NCBI GenBank assembly: GCA_036004685.1
Contig: DASYRE010000045.1
Location: 1 to 54,103 of the forward strand
Direction: 5' to 3'
DNA from: Candidatus Polarisedimenticolia bacterium
GTDB taxonomy: Bacteria; Acidobacteriota; Polarisedimenticolia; Gp22-AA2; AA152
DNA: 54,103 bases
Numbering within the stretch: the stretch's first letter is position 1; the number at the start of each line of letters is the position of its first letter. The notes under the pieces were generated by a model, which had not been told where the DNA came from, made no database searches, and was given only the letters and a program-made list of their open reading frames with translations. Positions 24,695-53,882 of the stretch are shown piece after piece. Both the position numbers and the translations under genes were made by a program.

Positions 24695-27127
24695 TCACTC
24701 GTCTCTCAGCGCGGTCAGCGGGTCGATGCGGATGGCCCGCAAGGCCGGCAGGCAGCTTGCGACCACCGAGACCGCGGAGAGCAACAACGGAATCGCCGCG
24801 AAGGTGAGAGGATCGCCGGTGGTGACTCCGAAGAGCAGGCTCGAGAGCAGGCGGGTCACGCCCAGCGCGGCGGCCAATCCGAGTCCCACGCCCGCGAGCG
24901 TCAGGGCCAGGACCCTCGTCATGACGAGCCGGAGCACGTCCACCGGCCGCGCTCCCAGCGCGATACGCAGCCCGATCTCCGGCGTCCGCTGGCTCACCGA
25001 ATAGGCGGTGACGCTGTAGATCCCGAGCGCGGCCAGCGCCAGGGCGAGGGATGCGAACAGCCCGGCGAGAATCAGGATGTACCGCCGGCCGGCCATGGAT
25101 CCCCCGATGACCTCCTCCATGGTCCGGAGGTTCGCCACCGGCTGATCCGGGTCGATGTCCCGCATCCGCCGCCGGACGGCGCCCATCAGGCTGCGCGGCT
25201 CGCCGGCGGTCCGGATGACGACGGCCAGTGAGGAAATCGTCCGCTGATTCGCGGACAGGTAGAAGGTCTCCGCGTTGACCGTTTCCAACCCGTCGAGTCT
25301 GACGTCCCCGACGATCCCGACAATCTCGCGCTCGACGGAGGATTTCCCCAGGACGACGTGCCGGCCGATCGGATCCGCGTCCGGGAAGAAACGGCGCGCG
25401 AAGCTCTCGCTGATGACCACGGTGATGGGGGCCGTGTCGTCCTCGTCCTCACGGAAGCCTCGCCCCTTTCGGAGAGGGATTCCCAATGTCCGAAAGTAGC
25501 CTGGCGTGACCGTGTTGAAGGGAACGACCGCTCGCTCGCCGGGAGGAGGGACGGCAAGGCCGGGGACCGCGGCCAGCGTCTGGGGAGTGGTTTCCCCGAG
25601 CGGCAGCGTTTCGGCGGCCCCTACCGATAGGGCGCCCGGCAGCGATCCGAGATCGTCCGAAAGACGCCGATAGAACTCGCGCCTCTGAGCCGGTTGGGCG
25701 TACTTCGAAGGCGCCAGATCGATCTTCGCGGAGAGGAGGTTGCCGGGCCGGAACCCTATGTCGACGGCGAGGAGCCGCACGAAGCTGCGCATGAGAAGGC
25801 CGGCGCCAATCAGCAGCACGACCGCGAGGGCCACCTCGGCGACGACCAGGAGGGCTCGGATCCTCAAGCCGCGCGGGCCGCCGATGGAACCCGGACCGGC
25901 GTCGCGCAGCACTTCGTTCAAGTCCGTCCGGGAGGCGTACAGCGCCGGAGCCATCCCGAAGATCAGTCCCGTGAAGAGCGCCAGCCCGCCGGTGACGGCG
26001 AGCACGCCTCCGTCGAGCCGGATCTCGGAATTCCGCGGGAGGTGCCCGGCTCCCCTGGAGACCAGGAGGGTCAGACCCCACGTCGCGATCAGCAGGCCCG
26101 CCAATGCCGCGGTGGTGGACAGCACGAGACTCTCGGAAAGCGTCTGGAGCATCAGGCGGCGAGGACTTGCCCCGAGCACGGCCCGCACGGCCATCTCTCG
26201 GCGCCTTCCTGTGGATCTCGCGAGCAGCAGATTCGCCACGTTGGCGCAGGCGATCAGAAGGACGAATCCCACGGCGACGAGCAGAACGAGCAAGGTGGGC
26301 CGGACGCCCGAGACCATCTGATCCTTCATCGGCACGATCCGATACTGAAGGTCGGCATCGAGTCCTTCGGAGTACGGTTCCCTTGCGGCGATGACGTCAA
26401 GCTCCGCCTGCGCCCGGCCGATCGACACCCCGGGCTTCAGCCGCGCGATGAGGCTGAGATAGCCGGAGCCTCTCTCCACGGCGCCTGAGCTCAGAAAGCT
26501 CGGCTCGAGGACGCGCGGGATCCAGACGTCCGCCTCTCCGTCGGGAAAGACGAATCCCGCCGGCAGGACCCCGACGATCGCGCGCGGAATCCCGTCGAGC
26601 GAAACCGGCTTTCCCAGGATTCTCGGATCCGATCCGAACCGATGCCGCCACAGCGCGTCACTCAAAAGGACCACCGGGGCGCCGCCCGGCTGCTCCTCCT
26701 CGCCCCGGAAGTTGCGACCTCGGGCGGGTCTCACACGGAGGACATCCAGGACGCCCGGCGAGACCCTCAAGGCGCTCAACTGCCGCGGCTCGCGAACCCC
26801 GGTGAGGTTGATCGTGTCGGCAGTGTAGGCGCCGATGGCTTCGAAAGCGCTACTCTGTCTCGCGATGCCGAGAAATCGCCGGTGGGAGAGAGGCGCTTCC
26901 TCCAGGCCCCTCGCGGGAGCCGAGCCCCACACCTGCATGATCCGGTTGGGCTCGAGGTAGGGGAGCGGTCGCACCAGGACGGCGTTGACGATGCTGAAAA
27001 CCGCGGTGTTCGCTCCCATGCTCAAGGCCAGCGTCGCCACGGCGATGCCCGTCCATACCGGATCCTTCCGCAGCTCCCGGAAAGCGTGCCGCAACTCGCG
27101 AACCGGCGACCTCAAGGGTACCTCCAT
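24695..27127 (-). CDS. ADOP-type ABC transporter permease (MacB/FtsX-like, no ATPase)
   Basis: About 810 residues; ATG 27127 is preferred, although a TTG at 27151 is also possible. The N-terminus ELRHAFRELRKDPVWTGIAV, then LSMGANTAVFSIVNAVLVRPL, is diagnostic of the large duplicated permeases of the ADOP family common in Acidobacteriota. A MacB-type periplasmic domain precedes the first FtsX block (LLIACANVANLLLARSTGRR); a second follows (LGIYSVTAYSVSQRTPEIGL) and the end RIDPLTALRDE is typical. No nucleotide-binding domain is encoded here or next to it. It lies 30 bases after the tail-tube-like gene, so the two are likely co-transcribed. Confidence 0.95.
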   Translation of the reverse strand: MEVPLRSPVRELRHAFRELRKDPVWTGIAVATLALSMGANTAVFSIVNAVLVRPLPYLEPNRIMQVWGSAPARGLEEAPLSHRRFLGIARQSSAFEAIGAYTADTINLTGVREPRQLSALRVSPGVLDVLRVRPARGRNFRGEEEQPGGAPVVLLSDALWRHRFGSDPRILGKPVSLDGIPRAIVGVLPAGFVFPDGEADVWIPRVLEPSFLSSGAVERGSGYLSLIARLKPGVSIGRAQAELDVIAAREPYSEGLDADLQYRIVPMKDQMVSGVRPTLLVLLVAVGFVLLIACANVANLLLARSTGRRREMAVRAVLGASPRRLMLQTLSESLVLSTTAALAGLLIATWGLTLLVSRGAGHLPRNSEIRLDGGVLAVTGGLALFTGLIFGMAPALYASRTDLNEVLRDAGPGSIGGPRGLRIRALLVVAEVALAVVLLIGAGLLMRSFVRLLAVDIGFRPGNLLSAKIDLAPSKYAQPAQRREFYRRLSDDLGSLPGALSVGAAETLPLGETTPQTLAAVPGLAVPPPGERAVVPFNTVTPGYFRTLGIPLRKGRGFREDEDDTAPITVVISESFARRFFPDADPIGRHVVLGKSSVEREIVGIVGDVRLDGLETVNAETFYLSANQRTISSLAVVIRTAGEPRSLMGAVRRRMRDIDPDQPVANLRTMEEVIGGSMAGRRYILILAGLFASLALALAALGIYSVTAYSVSQRTPEIGLRIALGARPVDVLRLVMTRVLALTLAGVGLGLAAALGVTRLLSSLLFGVTTGDPLTFAAIPLLLSAVSVVASCLPALRAIRIDPLTALRDE

Positions 27128-27157
27128 CGACCGTAACGGAACACGTCCCAAGGGCGC

Positions 27158-27646
27158 TCAGGGTAGGAGTGCGCGACGAATGCGCGCGGCGGAGATCGTC
27201 ACTCTTTCGATCAAGACTTTCGACGCGCCCGCCTTCGAAGTCTCCACCCCGACCTTCGAGGGCCAGGCGTCCTCCAGGTAGAAGCGGGCCACCGGGCTTC
27301 CATCGTAGTCGTACATCACCAAGGAACATGTCTTGCGGCCGGCGGCGCCTCCTTCGAGAACCTCGTCCTGCCATGTGGTGAACTCCAGGCCGGAGAGCGG
27401 GCGGCTCAGGACGAGGACATTCGGGATGAGCCTGGGCTCCGAGCCCTCCACCAGCTCTACCGATGAGGAGATTTCTTGCAGCTCCGTGAATGCCGCAATC
27501 TCGCGACCGTCGGCCAGAAGGGAGAAGCGGGCGGCGGTCAGAGCATCCTGCGGCGCAGCCGTGCGAAAGGCGGCGGGAAGCGTCAGCGTAGCCGCACCGA
27601 GCACCAGGACGAGCAAAGCAAATCTTCTGAACAGCGTCAGGCTCAT
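27158..27646 (-). CDS. Exported protein with phage tail-tube (T4 gp19-like) fold
   Basis: 162 residues from ATG 27646 with GGAGAG upstream. Residues 1-26 form a signal peptide (FALLVLVLGAATLTLPAA). The rest follows the gp19/tail-tube pattern: ARFSLLADGREIAAFTEL, LVLSRPLSGLEFTTWQDEVLEG, and CSLVMYDYDGSPVARFYLED followed by AWPSKVG and VLIERVTIS. In phages and contractile systems this fold builds the inner tube in the cytoplasm, so a signal peptide is unexpected. No other tail, baseplate or sheath genes are present. It is followed by the ADOP permease. I am fairly sure of the fold and not of the role. Confidence 0.75.
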   Translation of the reverse strand: MSLTLFRRFALLVLVLGAATLTLPAAFRTAAPQDALTAARFSLLADGREIAAFTELQEISSSVELVEGSEPRLIPNVLVLSRPLSGLEFTTWQDEVLEGGAAGRKTCSLVMYDYDGSPVARFYLEDAWPSKVGVETSKAGASKVLIERVTISAARIRRALLP

Positions 27647-28044
27647 GACCCTCTCTCCTTTTCAGGCTGATTGAAGGGACCCACCCGCCGGGCGAGACGG
27701 GAGCGCCTCCTTTATATCCACCGGACCCAGGCGAAAATCAAGCCTCCTCTGGTGACTATCTCCCCGCTTGCGCCCCGCCCCCTTGCGTGAATCGGCGCAT
27801 CCGTGAAATGATTGCAATCAAGGCCGTCCCGTCGCGACCGGCGCCGGCAGTTCCCCCCAAGGCGCGAACAGCGATGGCGAAACGGATGAGCCTTCCCCCC
27901 TAATGTCTCGAGAACTCTCAGAGTCGGGCTCCAGAATAGCCGAAAGAAACACCGGGCCATGCAGCGTCGCGCTCCCCCCCGGCGCGAATGGCTCGATTCG
28001 GTGGGACAGGATCCAAGGTCCACGCGCGGGTAGGGGGGCCCCGG
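27647..28044. other. Divergent intergenic region, about 400 bases
   Basis: It separates the leftward tail-tube-like gene from the rightward TMTC-like gene. A TATAAA-like string at about 27713-27718 could serve as a -10 on the reverse strand. I see no gene, repeat or clear RNA structure. Confidence 0.5.
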
Positions 28045-30255
28045 ATGCCTCGGGCCGACTTCCGAAAGACAATCGTTCGTCTTGCGCCGGCGATCGCGGC
28101 GGCTTGCCTCGTCTACTTCGGCGGGCTCTCCGGCGAGTTCGTTTACGACGACAACGAGCAGATCGTCAAGAACCCCTGGGTCCACGAAGTCCGCTACCTG
28201 CCTGAAATCCTCACGCACACGGTGTGGGCTTATCAGACTCCCGAGCCGACGAACTACTACCGTCCCGTCCAGATGGGTCTTTACAATCTGGCGTGGAGCG
28301 TCCTCGGCGGCTCCCCTAGATCGTTCCACGCCGTCAATCTGCTTTTCCATCTGCTTTGTGTCGCCGCTCTTTTCTTCCTGGCGCGGGAGCTGTCCCGGGA
28401 CGACGTGATGACGGCCGGCGCGGCCCTCCTCTTCGCCGTGCACCCTCTCAACACCGAGGCGGTGGCCTGGATTGCCTGCCTTCCGGATCTGACCTACGCC
28501 TTCTTCGTCATGACGACGCTGTTCCTCCACGCTCGATCCCGCCGGGCCGCGGGCCGGCGGCGAGGGTTGCTGGAAGGGCTCGCGGTGGCGGCCTATCTCT
28601 TGGGTCTGTTCTCCAAGGAGACCGCGGTCGCTCTCCTTCCTCTGGTCTTCCTCCTCGAGATCTGGATTCCACGCGGAGACGACGCGAACCGGATCGCCCG
28701 CCCCCCCTCGGATCGAGGAGGGAGGCGGAAAAAGCCATGGTCTTCGTTCTCCGTCCCTGCCGGACAATTGGCCCGCGCGCTCCTGCCCTACGCGCTCGCG
28801 ACCCTCGGGTATCTGCTCCTCCGCCTGGCGGTGGTCGGCGGGATCGCCCCGCGGGATCGGAAGGATCTGACGGCGCTGGACGCCTTGCTCAACGCGCCCG
28901 CGCTGCTCCTTTCCTACCTGCGGGCGATGGTCGCGCCGGTTCGCCTGCTCGCGATTCACGTCCTCGAGCGGGTCCCTTCGGCCGGCCATGTCCGTTTCAT
29001 CGGGTGCGCCCTCGGGGTGGCGGCCTTCGTCTTCCTGGTCGTCAGGCTGTCGCGGCGGCGTCCCGATCTCGCCTTCGCCGGCAGTCTCATCCTGCTGCCG
29101 CTCCTGCCGGTCCTCTACATTCCCGCCTTGGGAGAAAACGCTTTCGCCGAGCGCTACAGCTACCTCGCGACGGCCGGATTCGCCTGGCTCGCGGCGGGCG
29201 CTCTCACGGCGTTGATCCGCTCCCTCCGGGGAATCGGGAGACATGCGGCATGGGCCGGAGCGTTGATGTTCCTTGCTATGCCGTGCGCTTGGCGGACGGT
29301 TACGAGAACCGCCGATTGGCACGACGATCGCAGGCTCGCCACGGCCACCCTTAGGGACGAGCCGCGCGCGTGGCAAATGCACGTCGTGCTAGCAAGCTGG
29401 TACTATCGGCACGATCAGCTCGAACAAGCCCTCGCGACGCTCGAAAGAGGGCTCACGGTCGTCGCCGGGAATCCCCGATTGGAAGCCGAAGCGACCGGGC
29501 TTCGATTGCAGCTTCACCGCATCCGGCCTGAGGAAGCCATCCGTGACTTCCGGCGCATAGCCGCCACCTATCCCGCCTTCTATGAAGCCGAATATTGTCT
29601 TGGGGATGCTTATCTGAAGATCGATCGGCCGGCCGAAGCGGCAGCTGCCTTCCGCCGGGCGATCGCGATCAATCCCCTGGGAATCGAGGCCCACGAGGGC
29701 CTCTTCGTGGCGCTGGTGGCGCAAGGACGATCGGTCGACTGGCGCAGCTCTCGGGAGCGGCTTTCCACTCCAATGGCGCCGCGGGCCATGGACAAGCTGC
29801 TGGAAGGAGTGGCGCAGGAGAAGGCGGGCCGCCTCGACGACGCCGAGGCCTCCCTGCAAGAGGCGCTCCGCCTCGATCCCAAATCCGACCGCGCGCTGCT
29901 CTCCCTCGCCGTCGTGGAGAATCGGCGGGGAAGATACGCGGAGGCGGCCGATTACTGCCGCCGCGCCCTCGCTCTCAAGCCCGCCTCGGTGGAGATCTAC
30001 GAGCAGCTGGGAGTGAGCGTGCTCAACCTCGGGGAGGTGGAGGAGGCGGTCGAGGCGCTCGAGAAGGCCGTCGCGCTCGATCCCTCCGACAAGGAAGCTC
30101 AAAACCGTTTAGGCGTGGCCTACGCCAAGGGGGGGCGGCAAAACGAGGCGCGCGAAGCCTTCCGGAAAGCCCTGTCCCTCGATCCTGCCTTCGAGAAGGC
30201 GCGGTTCAACCTGGAGCGCCTCGAGCGCGAGGTCGTCGCGGAGGGAGCGAGGTGA
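28045..30255 (+). CDS. TMTC-like membrane protein with C-terminal TPR repeats
   Basis: About 736 residues from ATG 28045. The first luminal/periplasmic loop carries FVYDDNEQIVKNPWV followed by NYYRPVQMGLYNLAW, the pattern of TMTC-type and related GT-C mannosyltransferase-like membrane proteins. HAVNLLFHLLCVAALFF and FAVHPLNTEAVAWIA follow, with about ten hydrophobic segments to residue 420. From about residue 440 come TPR units (AEAAAAFRRAIAINPLGIEA, DAEASLQEALRLDPKSDRAL, EAVEALEKAVALDPSDKEA, EAREAFRKALSLDPAFEKA). Sugar transfer to protein or lipid is the family expectation, but the acceptor is unknown. It stands alone. Confidence 0.85.
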   Translation: MPRADFRKTIVRLAPAIAAACLVYFGGLSGEFVYDDNEQIVKNPWVHEVRYLPEILTHTVWAYQTPEPTNYYRPVQMGLYNLAWSVLGGSPRSFHAVNLLFHLLCVAALFFLARELSRDDVMTAGAALLFAVHPLNTEAVAWIACLPDLTYAFFVMTTLFLHARSRRAAGRRRGLLEGLAVAAYLLGLFSKETAVALLPLVFLLEIWIPRGDDANRIARPPSDRGGRRKKPWSSFSVPAGQLARALLPYALATLGYLLLRLAVVGGIAPRDRKDLTALDALLNAPALLLSYLRAMVAPVRLLAIHVLERVPSAGHVRFIGCALGVAAFVFLVVRLSRRRPDLAFAGSLILLPLLPVLYIPALGENAFAERYSYLATAGFAWLAAGALTALIRSLRGIGRHAAWAGALMFLAMPCAWRTVTRTADWHDDRRLATATLRDEPRAWQMHVVLASWYYRHDQLEQALATLERGLTVVAGNPRLEAEATGLRLQLHRIRPEEAIRDFRRIAATYPAFYEAEYCLGDAYLKIDRPAEAAAAFRRAIAINPLGIEAHEGLFVALVAQGRSVDWRSSRERLSTPMAPRAMDKLLEGVAQEKAGRLDDAEASLQEALRLDPKSDRALLSLAVVENRRGRYAEAADYCRRALALKPASVEIYEQLGVSVLNLGEVEEAVEALEKAVALDPSDKEAQNRLGVAYAKGGRQNEAREAFRKALSLDPAFEKARFNLERLEREVVAEGAR

Positions 30256-52670: not shown

Positions 52671-53882
52671 ATGTCCAGGAATCTCGTCATCTGCTGCGAT
52701 GGAACGAACCGCGAATTCGGCTCGCACAACACCAACGTCATCCGCCTCATCCAGTGCCTGGATCGCGGCAAGCCGGAAAGGCAGGCGCTGTTCTACGATC
52801 CCGGCCTTGGAACCCTCCCGGAGCCGGGCATGGCGACCTGGATCGGGAAAGGACTGTCGAGGGCCTTCGGGCTGGCGTTCGGAGCCGGCTTGGGCGGCAA
52901 CGTCGGCGAGGCCTATACCTTCTTGAAAGATTTCTGGCAGCCGGGTGACCGGGTGTTTCTCTTCGGCTTCAGCCGGGGAGCCTATACGGCCCGGGTGCTC
53001 GCCGGCATGCTTCACGTGCTGGGGCTCCTGCCGCGGGGCAGCGACAACCTGATTCCCTACGTCTGGAGACTCTTCAAGTCGATCCGCAAGGAGGGCGCGC
53101 AGAAATACTGGAATCTGTGCGACGAATTCCGGTGGACCTTCGCGCGGCCCATGGCCGAAGGAGACGCCAAGCGGCACTTCCAGGTTCATTTCATGGGTCT
53201 CTGGGACACCGTCTCGTCGATCGGCTGGATCTGGGAGCCGGTGTCGTTTCCCTTCACCGCCACAAATCCGAGCGTCGGAGTCATTCGTCACGCCGTTTCG
53301 ATCGACGAGCGGCGCTCCTTCTTTCGCCAGAACCTCTTCCATCCGGCGGAGGGTCAGGATCTGCGGGAGGTCTGGTTCGCCGGCGTCCACGGCGACGTCG
53401 GAGGGGGCTATCCGGAGAAGGATGGCGGGCTGTGGAGGTATCCTTTCGAATGGATTCTCGACGAAGCCGAAGCCGCCGGCCTTCTCGTCGATCCGCAGCG
53501 TCGCCAGGAAGTGGCGCATCGGACCGAGCCGTTCGCGCGGGCCTGGGTGGATCCCAAGCACGAGTCCCTGACGCCGGCCTGGTGGCCGGCGGAGTTCGTT
53601 CCCAAGCTCCGAAGCAAGCCCGGCTCCTCGCTCCTGCGGCCGACGCTCGGCCTGGGCCGCCGGCGGCTCCTCAAGGAGGGCTCGCTGATTCACGGATCCG
53701 CGTTGATGCGCCTTCGCAAGGGCATCGATGCCCCTCCCAACCTCTCCGGCTCATTCGTCGCGAGGGTCCGCGCGCTGTCCTCGGTGCCTGAAGTGCTGCC
53801 GTATGATTCGCAGGAGCTTCCGGCCAGCCCCTGGCCGACCCGGCGCGAAGAGCTGCCGGCCGCGGATCGAAACGCCCGGTGA
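52671..53882 (+). CDS. DUF2235 alpha/beta-hydrolase-like protein
   Basis: 403 residues from ATG 52671 (GGGAGGAAG upstream). The start NLVICCDGTNREFGSHNTNV and the spacing to LFYDPGLGT are diagnostic of DUF2235. The nucleophile elbow is GFSRGAY, with Ser101 as the expected catalytic residue; FMGLWDTVSSIG and VWFAGVHGDVGGGYP give the other family positions, including the His/Asp pair. Relatives include cytoplasmic hydrolases of unknown substrate and the Tle1-type phospholipase effectors of type VI secretion. No secretion genes are near, and no signal peptide is present, so an intracellular esterase is as likely. Confidence 0.9.
   Translation: MSRNLVICCDGTNREFGSHNTNVIRLIQCLDRGKPERQALFYDPGLGTLPEPGMATWIGKGLSRAFGLAFGAGLGGNVGEAYTFLKDFWQPGDRVFLFGFSRGAYTARVLAGMLHVLGLLPRGSDNLIPYVWRLFKSIRKEGAQKYWNLCDEFRWTFARPMAEGDAKRHFQVHFMGLWDTVSSIGWIWEPVSFPFTATNPSVGVIRHAVSIDERRSFFRQNLFHPAEGQDLREVWFAGVHGDVGGGYPEKDGGLWRYPFEWILDEAEAAGLLVDPQRRQEVAHRTEPFARAWVDPKHESLTPAWWPAEFVPKLRSKPGSSLLRPTLGLGRRRLLKEGSLIHGSALMRLRKGIDAPPNLSGSFVARVRALSSVPEVLPYDSQELPASPWPTRREELPAADRNAR

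Follow-up and report, generated by a model that had tools for sequence, protein, structure and literature searches.

The gene at positions 27158-27646 and its fold

An open reading frame of 162 amino acids, referred to here as P0001, lies at positions 27158-27646 on the minus strand of the window, which is the whole stretch of 54,103 nucleotides that was analysed. The GC contents at the three codon positions (0.64, 0.50 and 0.77) fit a gene, and a Shine-Dalgarno-like AGGAGA (27654-27659, minus strand) stands 7 nt on the 5′ side of the ATG. The product can be divided into a putative N-terminal export segment (residues 1-31, MSLTLFRRFALLVLVLGAATLTLPAAFRTAA; 27554-27646, minus strand), the cleavage site of which is uncertain, and a tail-tube domain (residues 36-162; 27161-27541, minus strand). 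On the same strand, a MacB/FtsX permease of the ADOP type is encoded at 24695-27127 (PF12704, E 1.1e-32; PF02687, E 1e-25). The ATG of the permease gene, at 27127, is 30 nt downstream of P0001, and an alternative TTG at 27151 is only 6 nt downstream. The protein encoded by the divergent neighbour (27988-30255) has TPR repeats at its C-terminus and a weak PMT-like match.

The Phage_T4_gp19 profile PF06841 matched residues 39-155 of P0001 with 53.2 bits (E 3.6e-14), above its curated cut-off of 28.2 bits. The TIGR02241 profile gave E 1.3e-11, which is under the cut-off of that model. A phmmer search of the PDB with P0001 found 8bl4, a Streptomyces contractile injection system (CIS) tube, with E 1.5e-9. 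In the 3.84 Mb genome to which the window belongs, P0001 was the single PF06841 match. We made an AlphaFold2 model of P0001 with 15 actinobacterial homologues. The mean pLDDT was 70, with values below 50 for residues 1-35 and of about 63-90 for the domain. When the model was compared with known structures by Foldseek, 24 matches were obtained at E ≤0.001, and all of them were tail tubes, CIS tube, baseplate or cap chains, phage neck chains or Hcp. The top match was 9gts, and VIA-align superposed the model on a 9gts chain over 127 residues with Z 10.7. Thus, according to the model and these comparisons, P0001 has the tail-tube beta-sandwich with its flanking helix (strands 40-45, 48-53, 55-64, 72-81, 105-112, 118-139, 142-152 and 155-159; helix 87-97). 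P0001 belongs to the gp19 family by both sequence and fold. The initial annotation had recognised a gp19 or tail-tube pattern in this protein and proposed that a predicted structure be compared with tail-tube and Hcp folds; the profile match bears out the pattern, and the model matches both CIS tubes and Hcp.

The leader, the relatives of P0001 and the ring-stacking loop

gp19 proteins assemble in the cytoplasm, and Hcp leaves the cell via the type VI secretion system (T6SS) without a signal peptide. P0001 shares the fold and the profile match with these proteins. In contrast to them, it has an N-terminal leader, and the genes of a machine were not found. The best 12-residue stretch of MSLTLFRRFALLVLVLGAATLTLPAAFRTAA has a hydropathy of 2.64. 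In-frame start codons are present only at codons 1, 11, 15 and 66. Because the domain begins at about codon 36, translation from any start that yields the complete domain also takes in some or all of the hydrophobic ALLVLVLGAATL. A start about 25 residues downstream, which the initial annotation had considered as a way in which its signal peptide might fail, is ruled out, since there is no start codon there. Furthermore, the leader is absent from the actinobacterial CIS tube homologues. In the alignment, the closest of these start shortly before a DALTAARF motif, which in P0001 comes after the leader. It therefore seems that the leader was added to a complete tube protein. On the DNA evidence, the leader is real; the ribosome-binding site, the start codons and the hydropathy all support an export segment, and P0001 is predicted to be exported.

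Only one match to P0001 was found among 60 relatives outside its own genome. This protein, P0002, is encoded in genome G004 of the same order, is 48% identical to P0001 over the aligned part (46% overall) and also has a hydrophobic leader (...MLVMLAVNASA). The surroundings of its gene differ from those of P0001: the upstream ORF reads as an amidohydrolase, and no permease is adjacent. In G378, which belongs to another family, we found two leader-bearing paralogues, L042 and L043. Thus, the homologues with signal peptides that the initial annotation suggested looking for do exist. The core motif PVAR-x-YLE-x-AWPSK is strongly conserved. By the Nei-Gojobori method, dN and dS were 0.41 and 0.90 for P0001 and P0002 (ratio about 0.46), and 0.22 and 0.74 for L042 and L043 (ratio about 0.30). 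These averages below 1 would fit constraint, and recent decay in one lineage would be compatible with them too.

A first scan of genome contigs with P0001 alone as the query did not find a relative. The scan with P0001 and P0002 together gave 20 loci, 19 of which were actinobacterial. P0001 is 37-51% identical to the actinobacterial homologues and shares the DALTAARF and PVAR-x-YLE-x-AWPSK motifs with tube 1 of the actinobacterial CIS, which is represented by the Streptomyces coelicolor CIS tube (PDB 8bl4 and 9gts) and includes the best fold match. In contrast to P0001, these tube proteins have no leader, are encoded in CIS-type clusters and possess a full stacking loop. Five of the actinobacterial loci were listed gene by gene, and in three of them (Spirilliplanes, Kutzneria and Kitasatospora) a gene recognised by eye as sheath-like stands immediately before the tube-1 gene; these three are the best-resolved loci and lie in CIS-type clusters. 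In a tree of 46 rows, from which the long-branch rows L047, L041b and L039 were left out, P0001, P0002, L042 and L043 fall within a 14-row clade with actinobacterial tube-1 proteins (support 100/99). Inside this clade, the four cluster together weakly (89/58). This close kinship to CIS tubes, like the loop deletion described below, was not in the initial annotation.

In the alignment with the actinobacterial CIS tubes, P0001 lacks about 13-14 residues, including KKLPGK. We expressed the loop length as the number of residues between the alignment columns of I59 and W92. This distance is 33 residues in P0001, 39 in each of P0002, L042 and L043, and 44-52 in the other 42 of the 46 rows compared. 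Short-loop, leader-bearing proteins are rare and were found in three genomes. The shortened segment is the beta2-beta3 loop (residues 64-76; 27419-27457, minus strand), and the SRPLSGLEFTTW stretch stands just after the deletion. In a control model of the L052 tube, residues 41-49 and 54-63 form hairpin strands, which gives this tube one strand more at this place than the model of P0001 shows. The beta2-beta3 loop makes inter-ring contacts; when it is deleted, T5 and SPP1 no longer form tubes, and in YSD1 hexameric rings remain (PMC8718954). Because the loop that carries the inter-ring contacts is shortened in all four proteins, tube stacking has probably been lost in P0001, P0002, L042 and L043.

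Search for a tail machine and other exported gp19 proteins

No sheath or baseplate gene was found among the P0001 neighbours scanned. Genome-wide, PF17482 (sheath C-terminal), PF04865 (Baseplate_J) and PF05943 (T6SS VipB) gave no match in the genomes of P0001 and P0002; with one family each for sheath and baseplate, this absence is not absolute. As a control, PF17482 matched each of the three genomes in the set that carry a CIS. PF04865 matched two of the three, missing G299, and is less sensitive. For the families searched, the earlier statement that no sheath or baseplate lies nearby thus holds for the whole genome. A VipB gene is present in G378, G136 and G370, which probably possess a T6SS. 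The window also encodes a protein with a Tle1-like phospholipase catalytic domain (52671-53879; PF09994, E 2.2e-76), in a genome with no VipB match. A tblastn search of 50,697 phage records gave no match to P0001, and no relative was confirmed in viral contigs. The matches obtained in plasmids (Streptomyces, Deinococcus, Paenibacillus and Rhodococcus) were all partial, at about 30%.

PF06841 matched in 50 of the 396 genomes sampled from the phylum. The weak matches were read individually; of the strong ones, a part had their ORFs read, and none of these showed a leader. Leader-bearing gp19 proteins were found in genus g62, in G136, G370 and G438 (L041, L050 and L107). The G370 protein adds a CarboxypepD_reg domain, and the G438 protein has a similar layout; the G446 gene is at a contig end. 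In G269, the L046 protein carries two gp19 stretches as well as a Tat-type leader (RREFLGK); this genome also has CIS genes elsewhere. The G336 protein (L047:5416-6819) combines a leader with PEGA, collagen repeats and a gp19 domain, and a second gp19-like stretch was suspected by eye. The g62, L046 and L047 proteins resemble P0001 in combining a leader or Tat motif with gp19 away from a tail machine. However, this group carries extra domains (CarboxypepD_reg, PEGA-collagen), and the g62 and L046 proteins fall in tree clades separate from that of P0001 (L047 was among the omitted rows). The g62 exported proteins form a clade of their own (99/99), which stands next to cytoplasmic tubes from this phylum (96/93). 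Their loop is of near-normal length; thus, loop loss is no general rule among exported gp19 proteins. Well-supported branches of the tree force at least three changes between the labels exported and cytoplasmic. The simplest reading of the tree is that export was gained more than once, and losses may also have occurred.

Several further genes were seen in this survey. An RHS-repeat protein with a C-terminal gp19 (L045:5863-8004, G039) was not counted as exported; a leader was not visible in the frame read. A 3482-amino-acid ORF in G018 (L048:194-10642) appears from its sequence to encode a YD-repeat protein; close to the C-terminus it has a short stretch resembling gp19, preceded by one that, on visual inspection, resembles gp5/VgrG. 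Similar leader-bearing genes (VGDEVRYQCFCLGQEWVRATVER; L041 7229-8374 and L107 980-2128) lie close to the genes for the exported gp19 proteins in G136 and G438, which hints that the neighbourhood is conserved in genus g62.

Interpretation of P0001

As a working tail tube, P0001 fails on two features tested, the full stacking loop and the accompanying machine. We consider it probable, though well short of certain, that a tube protein akin to tube 1 of the actinobacterial CIS parted from its machine and acquired a signal peptide, and that most of its beta2-beta3 loop, the link between successive hexameric rings, was lost. The protein would then be exported to the periplasm or beyond, perhaps with cleavage of the leader. 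Given the role of the loop in T5, SPP1 and YSD1, we infer that it would act on its own as a ring or a monomer (a small beta-sandwich module for structure or binding) and not as a hollow tube. The idea of the initial annotation that the fold was reused outside the cytoplasm gains support, at the level of predicted proteins, from the same architecture in P0002, the G378 paralogues and the other exported gp19 proteins of the phylum.

P0001 could instead be the leftover tube gene of a lost CIS that survived by chance with a fortuitously hydrophobic N-terminus. The single copy, the failure to find other machine genes and the patchy distribution would suit such a relic, and the loop deletion could be decay. 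However, P0002, L042 and L043 share both the leader and the shortened loop, the ORF of P0001 is intact with a good Shine-Dalgarno sequence, the core motif is strongly kept and dN/dS is below 1; we regard a relic as unlikely. It is less likely again that exported P0001 hexamers still stack into a sheathless tube or filament in the periplasm or at the surface. The fold does match ring- and tube-forming proteins, and one short, beta-rich cluster among the potential aggregate-forming proteins of a granule secretome had a gp19-domain protein as its most abundant member (PMC12019908). Against this stand the loop of P0001, about 13 residues shorter, and the loss of T5 and SPP1 tubes on loop deletion (PMC8718954).

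The initial annotation had also named the adjacent permease as the partner of P0001, and a periplasmic protein made from one operon and docking on the periplasmic domain of the permease can be imagined. The two genes are on the same strand with a gap of 30 nt, a scan of the region found no terminator-like site, and co-transcription is possible. However, no permease adjoins P0002 or the G378 paralogues, so the pair is not conserved in G004 or G378. Moreover, 34 MacB_PCD stretches were counted in the P0001 genome, frequently as pairs within one gene, which makes a neighbouring one unremarkable, and ADOP permeases are usually orphans. The ADOP-type permeases point tentatively to Acidobacteriota as the phylum. 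The partnership is thus unsupported, and we consider it very improbable.

In the reading that we favour, the tube fold has been co-opted repeatedly, to serve in these proteins as an exported ring or monomer. A wider proposal, which we put forward tentatively as possible rather than probable, is that this phylum has repeatedly made tube proteins into exported modules of the envelope or the extracellular space, and that in one lineage the protein, its stacking loop deleted, forms single secreted rings that take no part in injection. Whole phage-tail machines are known to have been domesticated, and in the open-licence papers searched we did not find a description of exported lone gp19 proteins. 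If the account given here is true, one tube subunit has been freed, given a secretion signal and trimmed exactly at the ring-stacking loop, which would be a clear case of single-component reuse. An annotation of a lone, leader-bearing "phage tail protein" need not, then, indicate a phage or an injection system.
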